Shown in pieces: positions 29,214 to 59,948 of a stretch of 64,000 nt of DNA. Below the pieces are notes generated by a model. It was not told the DNA's origin, did no database searches, and saw only the letters and a program-made list of their open reading frames with translations. The translations under genes and the position numbers were made by a program. The stretch covers positions 4,804,555 to 4,868,554 of the forward strand of contig NC_020054.1 in assembly GCF_000331105.1 (NCBI RefSeq), given 5' to 3'. This stretch comes from Fibrella aestuarina BUZ 2. Its GTDB lineage: Bacteria > Bacteroidota > Bacteroidia > Cytophagales > Spirosomataceae. Position 1 is the first letter of the stretch, and each line of letters starts with the position of its first letter.

Positions 29214-29352
29214 AGTGAGCAGAAAAAGGGGGCATGGTTACTGTTGCCTAGTTAACACCAAAACGGACAAAAAGCGCCTTTTGGCCCTCAATTTGATTAA
29301 TGTAGCATCAGAAAGCGTAAATCCGGTAGCAGTAACATGCCCAACAGCACGC

Positions 29353-29365: not shown

Positions 29366-30550
29366 ATGAATACGACCGCTTCACGACCCCAAAACCCCTT
29401 CGTCCGTAACGTAGCCACTTTCTTCGGCAGCGCACAGGCGCGGGCTGTCGGGCTGGTATTTGCGTCGGACAGTGTGCTGTTTGGCAGTTGGGTATCGCAC
29501 ATCCCGCATGTGAAAGCGAGCCTGCACCTCGACGACGCCCAACTGGGTATGACGCTCTTTGCAATGCCCGCCGGTTTGCTGACGATGAACCCGCTCACGG
29601 GCTGGCTCATTGGGCGGCTGGGGCCGGTGCAGGCCTGTTTCTGGGCCGCTATTTTCCTATGTCTGTTTATGTGCATTCCCGTCAATGCCCCCAACGTGTG
29701 GGTGCTGGTTGGCGGGTTGTATGGTGTCGGCCTGAGCGCCGCCCTCATTAACGTGGGTATGAACACGCTGGCTACCGACGTAGAAAAAGCGCATGGTATC
29801 TCCATCATGTCGTCGTGCCACGGTATGTGGAGCGTAGGCGGTATGGTTGGCTCGGCCGTGGCCGGGGTAGCGATTGCGCAGCATGTACCACCGGGTGTGC
29901 ACGTAGCCCTCATGGCCCTGCTGGTGTTGGGCCTGACTTTCCTGATCCGGCCGGCCTTGCAAAGCATCCCGCTGACCGTTCCCGAAAAGGCCTCTTCGTT
30001 TGTGCGCCCCAACATCGACCTGTTCCTGATGATTCTGATCGGACTGGCGCTAGCGATGGGCGAAGGCGTTGCGTTTGACTGGAGCGCCGTTTACCTGCGC
30101 GAAACCCTTGGCGCGAGCAGTCAGGTAGCGGCGTTGGGCTTCGGTGCCTTCTCGCTGACGATGACGCTGGGCCGTTTCACTGGCGATGTCATCATTCCCC
30201 ATATCGGCGGGCGTCGCTGGCTGTTCATCGGCGGTATCGTCGGGGCAGTGGGTCTGTTGCTGGCGGTGCTGTTCCCCTACCCGCCCGTGGCGCTGATCGG
30301 CTTTGCGCTGCTGGGCGCTGGCTGCTCGCTGGGTGCGCCCATCCTCTACGGTGCTGCCCTGCGCGTGCCGGGCATTGCGCCTGCCGCTGGTCTGGCTACG
30401 TTTGCCACTTTCAGTTTCATTGGTTTTCTGGCTGGGCCGCCCATTATCGGGTTTGTGGCCGACGCCTTCGGGCTTCCCTGGGGGCTGGTTTTTGTCGCTG
30501 CAACCTTGCTCATCTCGGCCGGCCTGAGCCGAATCGTTAATTTGTTTTAG
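29366..30550 (+). CDS. MFS transporter (YbjJ-like)
   Basis: A 394-residue transporter with about twelve hydrophobic segments. The first loop region (FGSWVSHIPHVKASLHLDDA) and GMTLFAMPAGLLTMNPLTG match the YbjJ/FucP-like branch of the major facilitator superfamily. The substrate is unknown. It is divergent from the AraC regulator and followed by a HAD phosphatase; together these could be a small sugar-handling unit, which is inference. Confidence 0.87.
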   Translation: MNTTASRPQNPFVRNVATFFGSAQARAVGLVFASDSVLFGSWVSHIPHVKASLHLDDAQLGMTLFAMPAGLLTMNPLTGWLIGRLGPVQACFWAAIFLCLFMCIPVNAPNVWVLVGGLYGVGLSAALINVGMNTLATDVEKAHGISIMSSCHGMWSVGGMVGSAVAGVAIAQHVPPGVHVALMALLVLGLTFLIRPALQSIPLTVPEKASSFVRPNIDLFLMILIGLALAMGEGVAFDWSAVYLRETLGASSQVAALGFGAFSLTMTLGRFTGDVIIPHIGGRRWLFIGGIVGAVGLLLAVLFPYPPVALIGFALLGAGCSLGAPILYGAALRVPGIAPAAGLATFATFSFIGFLAGPPIIGFVADAFGLPWGLVFVAATLLISAGLSRIVNLF

Positions 30551-36700: not shown

Positions 36701-38149
36701 TTATTCTTCGGTTTGTTTCAGTGGTGTTTCAGTGGGATCACCCTGTTGACCGGCTTCTGATTTTGTCCGCCGCCGCATGTAGACGTCATCATTGGCGGAA
36801 TCGACCACGGTCTGCTTAAACCGGGAAACGTACCGTTGGGTATAGTCGAGGCGGCTATGCTGCAACGTCATCTGTACCTTTCGGATATCCCCACTGGCCT
36901 CGTAGAGGTCGTCGGCAAATTTGTGCCTGGCCGTGTGCATGGTGATGCGGGGGTTGACGCCAAACTCTTTGGCGATCTGCTTCAGCAAGATACCGATGTA
37001 GGAGATCCGCTTCGAAATCTCCGGCCCCAGATCCTCTTCGCTCAGGAAGCGCAGGCGCTGGGGCAGAAACGGAAATACGAATTCGTCCGGTGCTTTGTCC
37101 GCCAGATACGGGGCTAGTTTATCGAGCAGATACGGCTCGACCAGCACGCTTTTCATCTTATCCCGTTTATCACTGATGTAGTGCAGCCGCGTCACCTGAG
37201 CGGATTCCCCATTGACAATGGCCCACACTTTTTCAAACTGTTCCGCCCGCAGCGAGATCAGGTCACCGATTCGGATGCCATGCAGGTAGTAGGATGCCAG
37301 ATAGGCGATCCGTACCGCTTCCCGGGTACGATCCGCCCGTTTCAGTTGAGGCACCGGCGTATTCTCCCAGCGCATCAGTTCGGCATCGGTCAAGCGCTCA
37401 ACCTCGGTATCCGTACGGGGGAGGCGTAGGCCTCGCGTGGGATCGCTCTCGCTGGGTAATTTGTATTTGACAATATACGCCGTCACGTGCTGGCGGAATC
37501 GGTGAAGCCGATCGGAGACTGAGTTCCGGCGGCGGGCCGGGGTGTAGCGCGAGTTTACTGCGGGTTTGTTGAGTAACCAGCTTTCCCATTCCAGCACGAC
37601 ATCTTCCGTGAGCTGACTGAAGTGAATCGCGGGTCGATCAGGATCAAAGGCCGGGTCGAGTTCGCCGGGCAGGGGCTTACGTGGTTTCTTCTTGGGCGTA
37701 TCATAATCGAAGAGAAACTTGCGTAGGCTGTTGAGCATGGCCTGATGACAGCTCACCAGGCCGCGGTTCTTGTTGCGGCGCCAACGGTCAATTTGGGCCT
37801 CGACAAAATCGCTGAACGTGGTTTCCTGCTGGCCCAGCAATTTGTCTTTCACCTGCTGGGCGGTGTACACGGCGTGCGGGTTGGCCTGAACTAACCTTTT
37901 TTTCAAGGTCTCGATTCGATCATCCCAGGCTTTCAGCGTCGTGTTCAGCAGCGCCTGATTCGGATGGGAACGCCGTATCCAGTTCCTCTTCTGGGCGTTG
38001 CCCTCGGCATTGAAATATTTTTCCTGAACGTAAACGGTGGTATCGACGTATTTCGATTTCCGCTGGCTGGTGATACGCATCATCACCAGTTGCTGGCCAT
38101 CGGACTGTCGCACGGTGGTATTGAGGAAAAACGCGTGTGTAATCGCCAT
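36701..38149 (-). CDS. int: Prophage tyrosine recombinase (integrase)
   Basis: A 482-residue integrase, complete by motif. It has an N-terminal arm-type domain (residues ~1-100), a SAM-like core-binding domain (~130-250) and a catalytic domain with Arg in HGIRIGDLISL, Lys in DKRDKMKSV, HxxR in HTARHKF, His in LQHSRLDY and Tyr in YTQRYVSRF. It lies 9 nt downstream of the repressor gene on the same strand, so the two share a transcript. It marks the left end of the prophage, about 120 nt from kdsB. Confidence 0.93.
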   Translation of the reverse strand: MAITHAFFLNTTVRQSDGQQLVMMRITSQRKSKYVDTTVYVQEKYFNAEGNAQKRNWIRRSHPNQALLNTTLKAWDDRIETLKKRLVQANPHAVYTAQQVKDKLLGQQETTFSDFVEAQIDRWRRNKNRGLVSCHQAMLNSLRKFLFDYDTPKKKPRKPLPGELDPAFDPDRPAIHFSQLTEDVVLEWESWLLNKPAVNSRYTPARRRNSVSDRLHRFRQHVTAYIVKYKLPSESDPTRGLRLPRTDTEVERLTDAELMRWENTPVPQLKRADRTREAVRIAYLASYYLHGIRIGDLISLRAEQFEKVWAIVNGESAQVTRLHYISDKRDKMKSVLVEPYLLDKLAPYLADKAPDEFVFPFLPQRLRFLSEEDLGPEISKRISYIGILLKQIAKEFGVNPRITMHTARHKFADDLYEASGDIRKVQMTLQHSRLDYTQRYVSRFKQTVVDSANDDVYMRRRTKSEAGQQGDPTETPLKQTEE

Positions 38150-38158
38150 GATCTACGC

Positions 38159-39202
38159 TTACAGTGGCCCGTCGAGACGGTGAGGCAGGTGAAAAAACAG
38201 GCTGATGTCGTCTTTAGGCACGGAGATATAGGCGCCAGCCCCTTCCTGATAAGGTGCCAGCAGGATACTGGGTTCTGCGGTGGCCAGCGTGTTGCGCTCA
38301 ATGCGCCGGACCAGGAACCGACCATGCTTGGTCAGCAGGGCAACCAACCCCTCGTCGAGCAGGTGGTAAACGCTTTCCTGCAGGAGCTGAGCCAGCACCC
38401 AGTCGCCGGCCACCAGCTTGGGCTCCATGCGATCGTAGGCCCCGATTTCGAGCGCGTAAAAATCCGTGATCTTACCGGCCAGTTTCCCACCGACGACGCG
38501 CTTCATCAAGCGGCTATCGACGTATTGAATCGCGCGATCGGGTTCCCGGCTGCCGGTGGCGGGGTGAAACGGGGCTTTTAACTCGTCCATGCGTTCGGGC
38601 GTGAGCTCGGCCCGCAGCGACACCGATACGCGGGGGATGGGGAACGAGCCGGTATCGCTACCAGGCAGGGGCAGTACGACGTCGTCGACGCCGAAGATAT
38701 CGACCTCGGTAACGGTTCGATTGAGCAGCTTGGAGAATGCCTGCACGAGTTCTTTCCTGATCTTTTTCCCGATCTGGCGCGTCGCCCGCTCGTACCGATT
38801 ATAGCTCGACCTCCCTTTCTCCATCAGGTCGGCTACCTGCGCCGACTTGAGGTTATTACGCTCACGGAAGCGGCGCAGGCGAGTGCCGTCCCATTCCCGT
38901 TTATCCTCTGACCGGCCTATGCTCAGGCTCAACGGCAGTTCGGTACCTTCCGTGGTCAGCCAGTCGACGGGGATGTTCACCGCATCGGCGATCTGGGTGA
39001 GCGTTTTGCGGGTTACGGTCGTCTTGGGCTTGGGTCGCTGGAGGCGCGACATCGTGGCTGGGCTGATACCGACCTGATCGGCGAAGTGGCCTGGTCGCAT
39101 ATCGAGCAGGTCCAGGAGCAGGTGCATCTTGGCGGCGACTATGTCGGCCGATACGCGGTTCTGATCGTCGTTACTGGATGGGGTTGTTGAGTTAGCAGGC
39201 AT
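38159..39202 (-). CDS. Prophage repressor, two HTH domains + inactive S24-like domain
   Basis: A 347-residue DNA-binding protein. HTH 1 (~25-85) contains DQVGISPATMSRLQRP; HTH 2 (~108-165) contains SAQVADLMEKGRSSYNRYER. The C-terminal half has the LexA/CI S24 fold (FYALEIGAYDRMEPKLVAGD, later FLVRRIER). Where active S24 proteins read GDSM, this reads YDRM, and the usual Lys before R is Arg, so both catalytic residues seem lost and RecA-driven self-cleavage is unlikely. It probably represses the divergent early genes through the palindromic operators nearby. Confidence 0.8.
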   Translation of the reverse strand: MPANSTTPSSNDDQNRVSADIVAAKMHLLLDLLDMRPGHFADQVGISPATMSRLQRPKPKTTVTRKTLTQIADAVNIPVDWLTTEGTELPLSLSIGRSEDKREWDGTRLRRFRERNNLKSAQVADLMEKGRSSYNRYERATRQIGKKIRKELVQAFSKLLNRTVTEVDIFGVDDVVLPLPGSDTGSFPIPRVSVSLRAELTPERMDELKAPFHPATGSREPDRAIQYVDSRLMKRVVGGKLAGKITDFYALEIGAYDRMEPKLVAGDWVLAQLLQESVYHLLDEGLVALLTKHGRFLVRRIERNTLATAEPSILLAPYQEGAGAYISVPKDDISLFFHLPHRLDGPL

Positions 39203-41091: not shown

Positions 41092-42198
41092 ATGAGTGAT
41101 TATGATATTTTTAAACTGAACCGGCGCTGGTGGAATTTTTATTCGCGCTACCCCGGGAAGCGGAATCCATCGATGGGGCTGCTCTACTACTGGCTGGTCG
41201 AATCGGCCAATCAGGAGCGGTGGCCCGCCCAGTTCGAGATGGCCCCGAAAACGGCGATGGATGCCATCGGGGTGCAGAGTCGGACGACCTACGACAAGCT
41301 GCTGGACCAACTCTCGGCCTGGGGCTTCATTACGGTAAAACGGAGAGGCCTCAACCAGCACGTGCCGCAACTGATCGCTTTGTCAAAAAATGATAAAGCA
41401 AGTGACGAAGCAATCCATGCTGTGTTTGATCGTGCCTTATCAAATTTTGATAAAGCAGCTGACAAAGCGGCTGGCGAGGCAACGGATACCGAAGCCGATC
41501 CGAAGCCGGACGATGAGCCTGCTGGTTTGCCAACTGCCTTACCAGAAAATGATAAAGCAGATGATAGACCGACTGAAAATGCTTTGCCAGAAAATGATAA
41601 AGCAGATGATAAAGCAGACGGGTTTGCTTTGTCAAATTTTGATAAAGCGGCGGGGGGTGTACCTATAGAGTTAAAACATGTAAACCCTGAACACACACAA
41701 TCTCCCGCGGGTGAGCGTGCGGATGGGCGTGAGCCGGTCGATGGAATTGACCCGGCGTTTCTGACCGATCCGGCTGAGCCCAAGCCCGGTGATGGCCAGC
41801 CCCCAAAAGCCCCCCCCGGTTCCGGCGCCCCCCCCCGGATTGATCCGTACCGGGGCATCAAGGAGCGAGCCGAGGCGTGTAACGTCCCGTTTTCGCGCTG
41901 GTTCAAGGCTTACGACTACAACGCAACCATGAATCAGGCCATGCAGGCCTGGATCGCACTGACCGATGACGAGCGGGAGTTGGCGATGCAACATACCCCG
42001 GAGTATGTCCGGTCAAAACCGCAAAAGCAATTCCGAGGCTACCCCGTCAACTACCTGATTGAGAAGAAATTCAACGACGAAATCGTGTACCGCAATGCAA
42101 AAGAAAACCCCAAGTCTAACCCCGGAACAGGCAGCCGAGCCAAACTCAACCGATCAACCACTCAGCGAGACGACATCAGCATCGACGGCGACTTCTAA
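41092..42198 (+). CDS. DnaD/phage O-like replication initiator
   Basis: A 368-residue protein. The N-terminal winged-helix domain (~1-95: LYYWLVESANQERWPAQFEM, then RTTYDKLLDQLSAWGFITVK) is of the DnaD/replication-protein type. A repetitive acidic linker (~95-190) reads LSNFDKAADK and LPENDKADD in turn. The C-terminal region (~255-340) resembles the DnaD tail. The start is set at MSDYDIFKLN because upstream codons lie in the operator. The linker DNA contains five palindromic repeats that may be the origin. A DnaC-like gene follows. Confidence 0.75.
   Translation: MSDYDIFKLNRRWWNFYSRYPGKRNPSMGLLYYWLVESANQERWPAQFEMAPKTAMDAIGVQSRTTYDKLLDQLSAWGFITVKRRGLNQHVPQLIALSKNDKASDEAIHAVFDRALSNFDKAADKAAGEATDTEADPKPDDEPAGLPTALPENDKADDRPTENALPENDKADDKADGFALSNFDKAAGGVPIELKHVNPEHTQSPAGERADGREPVDGIDPAFLTDPAEPKPGDGQPPKAPPGSGAPPRIDPYRGIKERAEACNVPFSRWFKAYDYNATMNQAMQAWIALTDDERELAMQHTPEYVRSKPQKQFRGYPVNYLIEKKFNDEIVYRNAKENPKSNPGTGSRAKLNRSTTQRDDISIDGDF
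41377..41655. repeat. Five palindromic iterons inside the initiator gene
   Basis: Units begin at 41377, 41434, 41536, 41581 and 41626. Each fits GCYTTRYCA-N4-TGATAAAGCR, an imperfect palindrome whose right half TGATAAAGC is invariant. They are in frame with each other and encode the repeated DKA linker. Placement inside an O-like initiator gene recalls the lambda origin. Confidence 0.7.
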
Positions 42199-43153
42199 CT
42201 GGTCGAACCGCACCGAAGACGGTCGATTACTGCCGCAGGCAATGGACCCCAAGCTCGCTGCTGAATCGCAGGAAATTCACCAGAAGGCGCGTATGAAAGC
42301 CCAGGGCACGCCTAAACCGGTAGCTAACTCAGGTGCAGCGGCCGAAGCCCCGACGCTCACCGAGTTTCAGAAAGAGTACCGCCGCAATCTTAACCAGCCG
42401 CTAACCCAGACGCCGTTCGAGAAAGCGATGGCCGCGCTGGAGCGTCGCTACCCGGTCGACGAGGTCTACGTCAGCCCGATCACGTACGAGGAGGCCAGTA
42501 AGCTGTTCAAGACGATCATGCGTGGAGAGCTCGCCCGTATCGGCCGGACGCCGTATTACACAGCCGCCGACAGTGTCGTCATCAAAGGCTTGTTGCTCTG
42601 GCTGTTACGTGATCGCACCTCGCCTTACGATCTACACCGGGGGATCTTCCTGCATGGTCAACCCGGTTTGGGTAAGTCGCTGATTTTTCGGGCGCTGAAA
42701 ATTCTGGCGGCCAACGTACCGCTCCCCGACCGACTATTCAACATGGCTTCGACGAAAGGGCTGCTGGGCGACATCAGCATCACGAAGGAATTCGGATCGC
42801 TGACCCGCTATAAATCGGGTTGCTGGCTGCTCGACGACCTGATGGACGAGAAAGACGGCGAGTCGGCTGCTTACGCCGAACGCATGGACGTGCTGGACTG
42901 GCTGCTGACCGAGCGGGCTAAGGTGTTCGTCGAAAAAGGGCTGTTTACGCTGTTTACGTCCAACAAAGGCAAAGACGATATCGAGCTACACTACGGCACC
43001 CGCATCGCTGATCGCTTCGAGGAGCTGGTGACGTTCGTCGAACTAACCGGGGCCACCAAACGCCCGGTTCAGACTGGTGTGCCATCGCCAACCAATGCAA
43101 CGCCTGAGAGCAATGAAGGCAACAATGATGCTAATTTGACTCTCAATAGCTAA
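42095..43153 (+). CDS. DnaC/DnaI-like helicase loader ATPase
   Basis: A 352-residue AAA+ ATPase. Walker A is LHGQPGLGKS (~residue 190), Walker B is CWLLDDLMDE, and sensor 1 is LFTLFTSNKG, followed by the Arg-finger region TRIADRFEEL. It probably loads the host helicase at the phage origin with the upstream O-like protein. The N-terminal ~100 residues are low complexity. The start at 42095 overlaps the initiator by 104 nt; a later ATG at 42242 is possible. Confidence 0.85.
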   Translation: MQKKTPSLTPEQAAEPNSTDQPLSETTSASTATSNWSNRTEDGRLLPQAMDPKLAAESQEIHQKARMKAQGTPKPVANSGAAAEAPTLTEFQKEYRRNLNQPLTQTPFEKAMAALERRYPVDEVYVSPITYEEASKLFKTIMRGELARIGRTPYYTAADSVVIKGLLLWLLRDRTSPYDLHRGIFLHGQPGLGKSLIFRALKILAANVPLPDRLFNMASTKGLLGDISITKEFGSLTRYKSGCWLLDDLMDEKDGESAAYAERMDVLDWLLTERAKVFVEKGLFTLFTSNKGKDDIELHYGTRIADRFEELVTFVELTGATKRPVQTGVPSPTNATPESNEGNNDANLTLNS

Positions 43154-56415: not shown

Positions 56416-56880
56416 ATGGATCGCCGTTTTTACGGCGGTTTTACGGCGATGGGTAACCCAGAGCAGATCATCAAAGCCGGGGAGGCGACGCGTTTTTCTT
56501 CCGACAACCAGCCGGAGGATTCACCGCGTAACACAGGACCTATTTCTAAGTATTTACGCGAGATCGGAGACGCCACCGAGTTGGTGATGACACTGAAGAT
56601 TACGAAGCCTGACAAGAACGGCGTACCGACCACCAAAGAATCGACACACCGAATCGAAACCATTGGCGGGGCAACGATCAAAAAGATGCTCGCAACCCGA
56701 CTGTATCAACAGGCCATCAACGGGGATACGACAGCTGCCAAGATCATTCTCGATCGCACCGAGGGCCGCGTGCCCCAGCAGCTCAATCTGGGTAATAGCG
56801 ATGGCTCTCCACTCGATATCCGGGATATGTCGAGCCTTACGATTGAACAACTACGGGCCATCGCTAACGGTGAAGCATGA
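56416..56880 (+). CDS. Terminase small subunit-like (DUF5681-type)
   Basis: A 154-residue protein with the N-terminal style of DUF5681 (AGEATRFSSDNQPEDSPRNT) and a helical C-terminal part (MLATRLYQQAINGDTTAAKI, ILDRTEGRVPQQ) common to terminase small subunits that recognise phage DNA. Codons 3-11 form a hairpin (CGCCGT/ACGGCG at 56422-56437). An alternative ATG at 56449 (MGNPEQIIKAG) would place that hairpin in the leader. It overlaps the large terminase gene by 4 nt. Confidence 0.75.
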   Translation: MDRRFYGGFTAMGNPEQIIKAGEATRFSSDNQPEDSPRNTGPISKYLREIGDATELVMTLKITKPDKNGVPTTKESTHRIETIGGATIKKMLATRLYQQAINGDTTAAKIILDRTEGRVPQQLNLGNSDGSPLDIRDMSSLTIEQLRAIANGEA

Positions 56881-58331
56881 GCAACCGGGGCGAACATATC
56901 GCCGCGGCCAAAGCCGAACTCGAGCGCCGGGAAGCCCGGTGTGAGTTGGCCCGTCGTTCATTCGCCGAGGCCGTCAAGCTCTGGAAAGAGGGCTATTCCA
57001 TGCAGTGGTTTCATGAGCTGATCTGCGCCCAGTTGCAGGCCGTTCAGGAACGCAAGATTCAGAAGCTAATGATTTTCGTGCCACCTCAGCATGGTAAATC
57101 GGAGCTATCGACCCGGAAGTTTCCCGCCTGGGTACTGGGTAAGGATCCTGATCAGAAAATGGTGCTGGGTACGTACTCGGCCTCACTGGCTGCCGGCTTC
57201 AACCGCGATATCCAGAAGGTGATGGGTACGAAGGCGTATCAGGAAACCTTTCCAGGTACGGTGCTGCCGGGGCGTGGTGAAGGCGTGGCCAACACCGAAC
57301 AGTTCGAAATCCTTGGCCATGAAGGTGGGCTGGTCAGCGTGGGTCGCGGCGGGTCGTTGACGGGAAAGCCCGCCGATCTGGGGATCATCGATGACCCGTT
57401 AAAAGATCGGCAGGAGGCGCAGAGCCCCGTTATCCGGGAAGCCCTTTGGAGTTGGTACCAGGACGTATTCGAAACCCGGCTGCACAACGGTTCAGCGCAG
57501 GTACTGATCCAGACCCGGTGGGATGAGGAAGACCTCGGCGGTCGGCTGCTGGTCCGCGATGGCTACTACGACGCGCTCACCAACCCGACCGGGTGGACGG
57601 TGATTTCCCTGCCTGGCCTGCGCACCGAAGCGCCGAACCCACTCGATCCCCGTCAGGTCGGCGAAGCGCTCTGGCCCGAGCGGCACAGCCGGGAAAAGCT
57701 CGAAAAGGTCAAGAAAGACAACGAGCTAACGTTCAACTCGCTTTATCAGCAGGACCCCCGCCCCAGCACCGAAGCGCTCGTGTACCCGAACTGGCAGCCG
57801 ATCGACCGTATTCCCCCCTGCGAGCAGGTGTACTATGGAAAAGACTTCGGCTACAGCAATGACCCCACGACGCTGGTCAAGATCCACCAGAACGGCAACA
57901 AGCTCTACCTGGAGGAATGCTATTACAAAGTGGGGCTGACCAACCGCCAGATTGTCCAACACATGCATGCCGTTGGGGTCGGCCCCTACGATCCGGTCTA
58001 TGCCGACAGCGCCGAACCCAAAAGCATCGATGACCTGAAACAGGGCTTTTGGCAGGAGGACGGCACGTTTCAAGCCGGTTTCAACGTCATCCCCGCCGAG
58101 AAAGGCCCCGACTCCCTGCTGGCCGGCATCAATAAGCTGAAGGAGTTCGAGGTGTATTACCACGTCAACTCCCACAACCTGGCCCGCGAGCAGAAGCGCT
58201 ACCAGTGGGTCATGATGAACGGCAAGGCCACCAACGTACCCATCGACAGCAATAACCACTTACTGGATGGCGTTCGGTACGCCGTCTTTACTCGTTTCCG
58301 CAAACCTGACCGCTGGTTCGGGGCCTCTTAA
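56877..58331 (+). CDS. terL: Terminase large subunit
   Basis: The motor and nuclease that packages phage DNA. The 484-residue protein has Walker A (VPPQHGKSE, ~residue 70), a Walker B-like strand with Asp pair (ADLGIIDDPL), a coupling region (QTRWDEEDLGGRLL) and an RNase H-like nuclease with Asp in YGKDFGYSNDP, then YADSAEPKSIDDL and NNHLLDGVRYAV. Length is usual. It follows the small subunit and precedes the portal gene. Confidence 0.93.
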   Translation: MSNRGEHIAAAKAELERREARCELARRSFAEAVKLWKEGYSMQWFHELICAQLQAVQERKIQKLMIFVPPQHGKSELSTRKFPAWVLGKDPDQKMVLGTYSASLAAGFNRDIQKVMGTKAYQETFPGTVLPGRGEGVANTEQFEILGHEGGLVSVGRGGSLTGKPADLGIIDDPLKDRQEAQSPVIREALWSWYQDVFETRLHNGSAQVLIQTRWDEEDLGGRLLVRDGYYDALTNPTGWTVISLPGLRTEAPNPLDPRQVGEALWPERHSREKLEKVKKDNELTFNSLYQQDPRPSTEALVYPNWQPIDRIPPCEQVYYGKDFGYSNDPTTLVKIHQNGNKLYLEECYYKVGLTNRQIVQHMHAVGVGPYDPVYADSAEPKSIDDLKQGFWQEDGTFQAGFNVIPAEKGPDSLLAGINKLKEFEVYYHVNSHNLAREQKRYQWVMMNGKATNVPIDSNNHLLDGVRYAVFTRFRKPDRWFGAS

Positions 58332-58354: not shown

Positions 58355-58570
58355 ATGTCAATCAGTCTATCCGTCTTTATCCTGCTACTCGTCATCGCTG
58401 ACGTCGTCGCCATCGTGGCCACCGTGTTTATCGCCATCGATCCCGAATCCCGGGAGAATCGTACCCGCTTCTGGCTGCTGATCATCCTTGCCTCGAATGA
58501 ACTGGGCAACCTGATTTTTATCCTGCTTACCTACCACCACTACGTCACTCAACATGCTCTCACTACTTAA
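58355..58570 (+). CDS. Small two-span membrane protein
   Basis: 71 residues with two hydrophobic spans (LSVFILLLVIADVVAIVATV and FWLLIILASNELGNLIFILL) joined by a polar loop (DPESRENRTR). It sits between terL and the portal gene and overlaps the portal start by 17 nt. Its size and topology would allow a holin-like or exclusion role, but nothing specific supports either. Confidence 0.6.
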   Translation: MSISLSVFILLLVIADVVAIVATVFIAIDPESRENRTRFWLLIILASNELGNLIFILLTYHHYVTQHALTT

Positions 58571-59948
58571 ACGGGCCTTCCCCACCCGAGGCAGCACCGC
58601 CATCGAGGCGCAGGTCATTTCTGACCAATCCGGCTTTGCCACCTCCCTGCCCAATTCCGGCTTACTTTCGGGCCGCTCCTGGCTCACCATCGCGGCGAGT
58701 GATCTACGCAAAACCAAAAAGGCGTATATCAACCCGTACATCTTTATCGTCGCCAACTGGAAGGCGTCGCGCTTCTCGCAGGCAACGCCCCTGCTCTACG
58801 AAGTCAAAAATGAAAAAGCGTACCGGCTGTGGACCCAGCGCAAAGGCTATGATCGCCTCGACGACGTGGAGCACCGCCGCAAAGCGCTGGAAGAAATCGC
58901 CTTCGAAGATGCGGGTTGTGAGCAACTACTGACCCGGCCCAACCCAACCCAGACGTGGGCCGAATTGATGTATGGCCACTCGATCTATCACGACTTCGGT
59001 AACTCGCTCATCCGGAAGATCACGCCCGGCAAGGGCCTCAACGCCGACAAGGCCAAAGAACTGTGGCTGTTGCCTACGGCGCGCTGGCAAGGGGTAACGG
59101 CCTCGCTGGCGGGCTACGAGTATTACATCGATAATCAGGGGCAAAAGCTGCCAGCCGCCGAGGTGTGCCACATCCGTCGGTTCAACCCGATGTTTAACGA
59201 CGACGATACCGCGCTGTGGGGCTTATCGAAACTGGTGTCGTCGCAGCAGCTCGTCGACCGGTCCAATGCCGCCCTCGAGGCCGAGTATGCGTTGATGATC
59301 AACCAGGGTAAAAAGACGATCATCTTCCCTAAAAGCGAAAAAGGGGTGGGTCTCAACCCTCAAGAATTCGCCAACATGACCCTGGCGATGGAAACGGTCC
59401 GGCGTAAGCTCAAACACACCAAAACGGGGGACTTCGCCAATTTCAACACCGAACTCGGCTTGCTCGAAATCGGCATGTCGGCCGCTGATCTGGGTATCGG
59501 CGATACTCACGGGTTGACTAAGGAAGACTTGTGTGCGCTCTGGGGTTTCAACACCCTGGCGGTGTTCTCCCCGATGGACAATGCGAAGTATAGCAACCTG
59601 CAGGAGGCCACCAAGATGTCGTTGCGGCAGGGCATTTTGCCCGACCTGTACCTGACGTATGATAAGCTGTCTCAGTTCATCTTGGGGAAACGTGACCTCA
59701 AGAAGCGCAAGGTCATTCTTCAGCCAAACACCGACGTCTTTCCTGAACTCCAGCCAGATTACAAATCCATCAAGGAGAAGGCCGACGGCATGATCCTAAC
59801 TCCCAACGAGCGGCGGGAAATGTTCGGCTGGGGCCGCCTAGACTTTGAGGGTATGGATACCCCCATGGTCCCGTCCGGCTGGATTCCGCTTACCGACCTG
59901 GTCAACCCTGCCCAACAGCAAGACGCGCTGCCCGACGACGAGTATTGA
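58554..59948 (+). CDS. Phage portal protein (HK97-type)
   Basis: A 464-residue portal protein, the ring at the capsid vertex through which DNA enters. Typical segments are KAYINPYIFIVANWKASRF, LLTRPNPTQTWAELMYGH, YHDFGNSLIRKITPG, VCHIRRFNPMFNDDD and GLSKLVSSQQLVDRSNAAL. The late TPNERREMFGWGRLD is a common portal C-terminal motif. It should be followed by a head protease and major capsid gene, but neither is found. Confidence 0.88.
   Translation: MLSLLKRAFPTRGSTAIEAQVISDQSGFATSLPNSGLLSGRSWLTIAASDLRKTKKAYINPYIFIVANWKASRFSQATPLLYEVKNEKAYRLWTQRKGYDRLDDVEHRRKALEEIAFEDAGCEQLLTRPNPTQTWAELMYGHSIYHDFGNSLIRKITPGKGLNADKAKELWLLPTARWQGVTASLAGYEYYIDNQGQKLPAAEVCHIRRFNPMFNDDDTALWGLSKLVSSQQLVDRSNAALEAEYALMINQGKKTIIFPKSEKGVGLNPQEFANMTLAMETVRRKLKHTKTGDFANFNTELGLLEIGMSAADLGIGDTHGLTKEDLCALWGFNTLAVFSPMDNAKYSNLQEATKMSLRQGILPDLYLTYDKLSQFILGKRDLKKRKVILQPNTDVFPELQPDYKSIKEKADGMILTPNERREMFGWGRLDFEGMDTPMVPSGWIPLTDLVNPAQQQDALPDDEY

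Follow-up and report, generated by a model that had tools for sequence, protein, structure and literature searches.

The window, as we call the whole 64,000-nucleotide stretch analysed here (G000:C2:4804555-4868554), is part of the 6.94-Mb genome of Fibrella aestuarina BUZ 2. It contains a prophage with genes for an integrase, a repressor, a replication initiator candidate, a DnaC-like helicase loader, a terminase and a portal protein (Table 1). The initiator candidate is laid out as an N-terminal domain of the DNA-binding type, a linker that bears repeats and a C-terminal domain. The start of the loader gene (42095) overlaps the initiator end, and its PHROGs matches bear out the earlier suggestion that a DnaC-like loader follows the initiator.

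A search for att repeats of the left prophage end gave nothing beyond two matches, one of 17 bp and one of 14 bp, both at unlikely places. Beyond the window, the region from the portal gene to the major head gene (G000:C2:4868600-4934000) holds very large ORFs together with transposase-like and host-like genes, and a second tape-measure gene lies at G000:C2:4916982. Two of the host-like genes encode what we take to be proteins resembling UvrA and TerC. Because these large, transposase-like and host-like ORFs separate the portal from the major head gene, the window prophage may be split or composite.

Table 1. Prophage genes and features of the initiator gene, in window coordinates
Feature	Position	Strand	Basis
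Prophage integrase	36701..38149	-	PF00589 2.4e-14
Prophage repressor-like HTH protein	38159..39202	-	PF13560 2.2e-9; phrog_2328
Replication initiator candidate, 368 aa	41092..42198	+	ORF list, ATG at 41092; homologues exist
N-terminal winged-helix-like domain, predicted DNA binder	41092..41370	+	AlphaFold2 model and winged-helix matches
Unit 1, palindrome, ALSKNDKA	41377..41399	.	8/9 arm pairs
Unit 2, palindrome, ALSNFDKA	41434..41456	.	8/9 (10/11) arm pairs
Half site TGACAAAGC	41460..41468	+	12 bp past right arm of unit 2; sequence
Unit 3, palindrome, ALPENDKA	41536..41558	.	7/9 arm pairs
Unit 4, palindrome, ALPENDKA	41581..41603	.	7/9 arm pairs
Half site TGATAAAGC	41607..41615	+	12 bp past right arm of unit 4; sequence
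Unit 5, palindrome, ALSNFDKA	41626..41648	.	8/9 (10/11) arm pairs
Possible equivalent of the AT-rich AGTATA box seen in the family, CTATAGAGTTAAAACATGTAAACC	41663..41686	+	Position after array; weak, by eye
DnaC-like helicase loader	42095..43153	+	phrog_3277 and phrog_50, both 8.1e-6
Prophage terminase large subunit	56877..58331	+	phrog_38 2.1e-73
Prophage portal protein	58554..59948	+	phrog_12 1.9e-15

The initiator candidate and its five repeat units

The preliminary description had called the initiator DnaD/O-like, and our searches do not support that assignment. The window initiator matched no Pfam family at E<=1 and had only a chance-level PHROGs match (0.13) to another family. The AlphaFold2 model of its N-terminal domain (pLDDT 92.5, pTM 0.82; of the 71 alignment rows behind it one, L013 at 15% identity, represents a wrongly chosen stretch) has four helices and no assigned strand of at least 3 residues, and it resembles winged-helix proteins generically, with no solved structure distinctive. 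Membership of the lambda O family found no support in the same Pfam and PHROGs results, which gave no sign of O kinship, and membership of the DnaD family found none either, since neither library gave a DnaD match and the fold matches were only generic. No RepA_N domain was detected: Pfam gave no match, and a profile search against sequences with solved structures gave only an unrelated hit (E 0.065). Among viral library entries, matches better than E 0.001 were limited to two uncharacterised phage proteins, and the best hit of assigned function was a replication protein of Tenacibaculum phage Gundel_1 (E 0.014).

Five repeat units are indeed present in the linker, inside the initiator ORF (41092-42198), as had been described. 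They are not, however, 30-bp units with an N4 spacer; each is a 23-bp imperfect palindrome of the form GCYTTRYCA-N5-TGATAAAGC (9-5-9), and the array extends from 41377 to 41648 with start-to-start steps of 57, 102, 45 and 45. The right half, TGATAAAGC, is identical in 5/5 units and so is invariant, as was claimed, and the arms of the two LSNF copies extend to 11-1-11. The encoded peptides had been said to alternate between LSNFDKA and LPENDKA, but their order is LSKNDKA, LSNFDKA, LPENDKA, LPENDKA, LSNFDKA. The GC content of the units is 30-39%, compared to 54% for the whole gene, and the AT profile shows a weak AT-rich stretch next to the array.

The five units had been chosen beforehand for their palindromic look, a selection that the following nulls leave uncorrected. 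Of their 55 arm pairs 42 are complementary, compared to a mean of 31.6 (sd 2.7) when synonymous codons were reshuffled over the whole ORF; 42 pairs were reached in 1 of 20000 such reshuffles. The same count was reached in 1/20000 draws when the unit codons were drawn according to codon usage in the loader and the remainder of the initiator. When the reshuffle was confined to the five units the mean was 40.5 pairs (p 0.083, not significant), and the palindrome excess is therefore mainly a matter of which codons the units use at all. In a scan of the 6.94-Mb genome allowing up to 2 mismatches, the palindrome pattern clustered at the window array and at one other place only; besides these clusters there were three single matches, each at 2 mismatches, and the reversed control pattern gave 2+2. 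Other clusters of TGATAAAGC in the window genome (L207, L208, L006) were rejected as arrays by eye.

A repeat word conserved across the initiator family

Searches with the whole window protein recovered only distant relatives: one gave matches in 23 of 222 genomes of the taxonomic family (its own included), another gave 26 proteins (itself included), and there was no relative in the genome contigs searched. Relatives were recruited by the N-terminal domain alone, using queries that end before the linker; the seeds of these queries came partly from full-protein searches, while the recruits were linker-blind. The window protein's own domain found no relative in the viral contigs searched, and no relative of the domain was present in the plasmids searched. 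Domain-only recruitment from viral sequences kept 80 of 408 relatives, and further rounds kept 33/33, 80/131, 58/58, 80/375 and 1/1. The pool for the profile step also included loci from the full-protein search, whose domain matches were refound by the domain alone. The profile pass yielded 281 unique domain-linker pairs, of which 237 had a score of at least 100 and 235 of those had a linker of at least 90 nt (44 were dropped for the lower score and 2 for short linkers). At 85% domain identity the 235 core sequences gave 121 representatives. The initiator family occurs in Bacteroidota genomes and phage contigs, and its N-terminal domain is uncommon in chromosomes: at E<1e-30 it was found in 11 of the 222 genomes of the taxonomic family and in 3 of 395 genomes of a phylum-wide sample, counts that include its own genome.

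The word AAAGC occurs 619 times in the first 96 nt of the 121 linkers, compared to a mean of 344 and a maximum of 374 in 200 synonymous shuffles, and to a maximum of 313 under a codon-usage null that drew only codons downstream of the 96 nt. Pairs of the word spaced 11 or 12 bp numbered 432, compared to 114 expected (maximum 141 in shuffles), the commonest spacings being 12 bp (343 times), 11 bp (138) and 23 bp (44). Among the 1024 5-mers AAAGC ranks first in the linker with a z of 26, while the best word before or after the linker reaches about 6. It is absent from 5/121 linkers. Because the 11-bp steps shift the frame, the same word is read as DKA (AAA-GCA), as IKH or TKQ (A-AAG-CA) and as EST or QST (AA-AGC). 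Frames 0, 2 and 1 hold 301, 181 and 137 copies, respectively, and within 130 nt the word stands in all three frames in 88 of the 121 linkers and in at least two in 107. The persistence of AAAGC in three frames while residues change is in agreement with the earlier suggestion of selection at the DNA level.

In most family members the repeats are direct, 11-12 bp long and headed by a single palindrome; only in the window and in a handful of relatives (L013, L014, L016) is the palindrome multiplied. A strict three-word array pattern was present in 49 of the 50 phage records examined out of several hundred, among the matches listed, and the reversed control gave 0. There were two exceptions: in G635 the pattern occurs at a great distance from the initiator, and a single record had no match. 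Danklef_1, a Polaribacter phage, and seven phage contigs each have exactly one chain of at least three words, which lies within the initiator gene, and the control forms no chain in them. The member in Danklef_1 is gp43, whose chain comprises 9 repeats under a relaxed word.

Downstream of the array, an AGTATA box is found in 91/121 linkers; it starts 11 nt past the start of the last AAAGC in 79 of the 91 and stands in another frame in 5. AT content at the box climbs from 57-66% to 80%. In ten hand-picked relatives the next gene encodes a DnaC-like loader (5), DnaB or a primase-helicase (2) or a protein of no known function (3), and a Walker A motif is present in 108 of 220 next ORFs. In Danklef_1 the detrended minimum of GC skew is at 29912 and the array at 29332; this was the only one of eight phages (Danklef_1 and the seven contigs) where a skew extremum lies close to the array.

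The first unit was readable in 104 of the 121 representatives, and the 17 without a recognisable first unit were left out. In shuffles that ignore kinship, inner pair 7-17 was expected to be complementary in 38 of the 104 (maximum 52 of 2000 shuffles) and was so in 83, and inner pair 8-16 was expected in 46 (maximum 59 of 2000) and was found in 77; both pairs were matched in 66. Three different combinations were fully matched: T-A and C-G in the S..D class (34 members), G-C and T-A in the V..T class (19), and C-G and C-G in the P..G class (10), with both pairs matched in all members of each. The palindrome arms thus change together as the amino acids vary between these classes, and the core idea of the preliminary description stands up to the check proposed there, whether palindromes are kept while residues vary. 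On the other hand, the S..N class (12) has one of the two inner pairs matched and the LKEN types none or one, never both. Relatives that keep the peptide repeat and lose the palindrome had been named as counter-evidence, and some S..N and LKEN types come close to this, having a similar peptide without the full inner match.

In a tree of 173 domains, whose branches are poorly supported, a minimum of 9 changes is required for the matched classes (104 rows), and 69/173 rows are without the full inner match. A tree-based sign test, with too few independent pairs, gave about 3 same and 0 opposite for GT and about 1 same for TC. In the P..G class the trinucleotide GGC also precedes AAAGC in frames 1 and 2, which fits a concerted change of the whole array. 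Since AAAGC is read in three frames and the arms of the first unit change together, the conserved entity is the DNA and not the peptide, and on these sequence comparisons we consider conservation of the repeat at the DNA level in this initiator family close to certain.

Noncoding arrays in Fibrella and Emticicia

The second cluster in the window genome is an array at G000:C2:4944231-4944402 (L206 2232-2403), 98 kb downstream and outside the window. It has four palindrome units, clustered over 4944231-4944386 with steps of 45, 44 and 44 bp, has stops in all six frames, and shows no remnant of the N-terminal domain among the ORFs of at least 70 aa examined there. Roughly 118 bp of it can be aligned with the coding array, and an AT-rich stretch follows. 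The array is located past phage head and tail genes between divergent ORFs, neither of which has a PHROGs match. Because host-like genes and transposase-like ORFs lie in the interval and the search for att sites found none, the two arrays need not belong to one prophage. Four congeners without the N-terminal domain had no array, only background palindrome matches; in one of the four, G112, the C-terminal part of the initiator has a relative.

Two Emticicia genomes (G105 and G106) contain 12 further palindrome loci, most of them followed by AAAGC words, and no ORF of at least 90 aa runs over a unit at any of the 12. In each genome a noncoding array lies on the same contig as the initiator: in G106 directly before terS-terL, 56 kb from the initiator, and in G105 before a portal-like ORF, 45 kb from it. 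Host-like genes lie between initiator and array in both, and no att sites were found. A split like that considered for the window prophage was observed at G106:C22:369000-383000 (L482), where genes that look host-like by eye lie between the terminase and the portal of the Emticicia prophage.

PHROGs identified terS beside two of the arrays, L432 and L435, the latter among host genes. L425 is the chromosomal place of L435 in the other Emticicia species, with an apparently decayed terS, and L424 and L427 look decayed by eye. In G099 a decayed-looking remnant occupies the place orthologous to an Emticicia element, so there is no clean empty site. The terS elements also contain a 35-50-bp piece (L435 query 1781-1832) that accounts for a large share of the matches in the two Emticicia genomes (87 and 50), is often tandem and reads KVTNMVGTFL as a peptide.

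It could be speculated that the array is a portable origin code read in trans by a phage initiator. The Emticicia elements of about 1 kb that combine an array with terS, which can be recognised in L435 and seems decayed in L424, L425 and L427, stand at several chromosomal places with no initiator or integrase nearby; they would then be minimal satellites that borrow the initiator of a helper and direct packaging through a small terminase of their own, and the noncoding array of the window genome would be a borrowed or second origin of the same kind. We regard this proposal as unlikely. No paper on satellites of this kind was found in a literature search covering few subscription journals.

A candidate origin inside the initiator gene and its alternatives

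Origins located inside initiator genes are already known from lambda, the Bacillus phage SPP1 and the plasmid pSK41. In lambda and lambdoid phages, according to the accessible part of the source, the origin lies midway along the initiator gene O and consists of inverted-repeat iterons plus an AT-rich tract; the iterons are 19-bp imperfect inverted repeats, and extra iterons add residues to O (PMC7466680). SPP1 gp38, as far as the available text goes, binds repeats in its own gene 38 (oriL) and at a second, intergenic origin (oriR), both with an AT-rich unwinding element, and the helicase loader is gp39 (PMC6316719). The available portion of a paper on pSK41 places the origin inside rep, an initiator gene of the RepA_N type (PMC5703833).

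In the initiator family described here the repeats lie inside the coding region, between the DNA-binding domain and the C-terminus, and are almost certainly under selection at the DNA level. A helicase loader or helicase gene adjoins the initiator in the window and in 7 of the 10 hand-picked relatives. From this arrangement we think it probable that the linker of the prophage initiator doubles as the replication origin of the phage. The N-terminal domain would bind the repeats within its own gene, the initiator and the DnaC-like protein of the next gene would bring the replicative helicase to the AT-rich DNA that adjoins the array, and unwinding would start beside the repeats. A noncoding copy could act as a second origin or, like SPP1 oriR, as a fork-stalling site. 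Against this reading count the non-significant result of reshuffling codons within the units, the unmatched inner pairs of the S..N and LKEN types, the sign test with its too few pairs, the five linkers that lack AAAGC, the GC skew that agrees in 1 of 8 phages, the weak AT-rich stretch of the window, and the next genes that have no known function (3 of 10) or no Walker A motif.

By analogy, the initiator-embedded iteron origin is best read as a kind and not as a homology family, with this candidate built like lambda O, SPP1 gene 38 and pSK41 rep. As in lambda O, the iterons are in the middle of the initiator gene, and in the window 5/5 units are imperfect inverted repeats. In contrast to lambda O, the unit of the family is an 11-12-bp direct repeat running through three frames, and mostly only its head is palindromic. 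The lambda-like origin first proposed for this gene is thus supported as regards the DNA-level repeat and the loader context, whereas the palindromic, lambda-like iteron is only a local form. Similarity to SPP1 lies in the repeats within the initiator gene and perhaps, in the window genome, in a second noncoding array. However, second arrays were seen only in the window genome and the two Emticicia genomes, not in Danklef_1 or the seven phage contigs, and the SPP1 origins are about 13 kb apart while the arrays here are 98, 45 and 56 kb apart. DnaD-type phage replication proteins share the helical N-terminus of DNA-binding type and the place before a helicase loader, but the window initiator has no DnaD match by Pfam or PHROGs.

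One alternative is that the array is an operator, the protein binding its own gene and distant copies in order to regulate transcription and not the start of replication. Danklef_1 gp43 is annotated as a transcriptional regulator, and the noncoding array of the window genome lies between divergent ORFs, albeit ones with no PHROGs match. Against it, the array of the family lies within the coding region, roughly 280 bp beyond the start codon and followed by an AT-rich box, and the next gene is a loader or helicase in seven of the ten relatives sampled; we consider an operator improbable. The array could also be a packaging or late replication site (pac-like or fork-stalling), the copy in the initiator gene being secondary. 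The G106 array directly before terS-terL and the copy that carries terS are consistent with this, but Danklef_1 and the seven phage contigs have no array chain outside the initiator gene, and none precedes the Danklef terS, which makes this explanation highly improbable.

The two remaining explanations concern the linker itself. Copy number differs between relatives, as it would if tandem units arose by slippage in a neutral linker and were kept by drift. However, bases between the words diverge while AAAGC and the 11/12-bp spacing are kept across the family, and the 11-bp steps shift the frame, which in-frame duplication would not do; we give drift very little credence. Selection on the peptide, with LSNFDKA and DKA repeats serving the protein as a linker or partner motif, would explain why many relatives have ALSNFDKA, or a peptide close to it, after the domain, yet one DNA word is read there as three different sets of residues, and a peptide cannot explain the arrays in the window genome and Emticicia because those are noncoding. 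The three-frame reading and the noncoding copies rule out the peptide repeat as sole cause, and the probability that we assign to peptide selection is close to negligible.

No published report of an embedded origin in this initiator family was found, with subscription journals mostly outside the coverage of the search, and the accessible part of the Danklef phage paper reports none (PMC8776804). What distinguishes the candidate origin from the known cases is the extreme overlap, one 5-base word running with an 11-12-bp rhythm through all three frames of the linker, in an initiator family whose window member is matched by no Pfam or PHROGs model. The word serves as a legible address of candidate origins in phages, the cultivated Danklef_1 among them, the family offers a natural covariation set for how initiator and iterons evolve together, and through the noncoding arrays the idea of second or borrowed origins can be put to a direct test. 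Linker repeats are also present in initiator-like genes whose N-terminal domains differ (L012, L025, L029 and L010), where they read QNEPS, SQNE, KNATA and RYQ/KVSK; these are perhaps iterons of their own.
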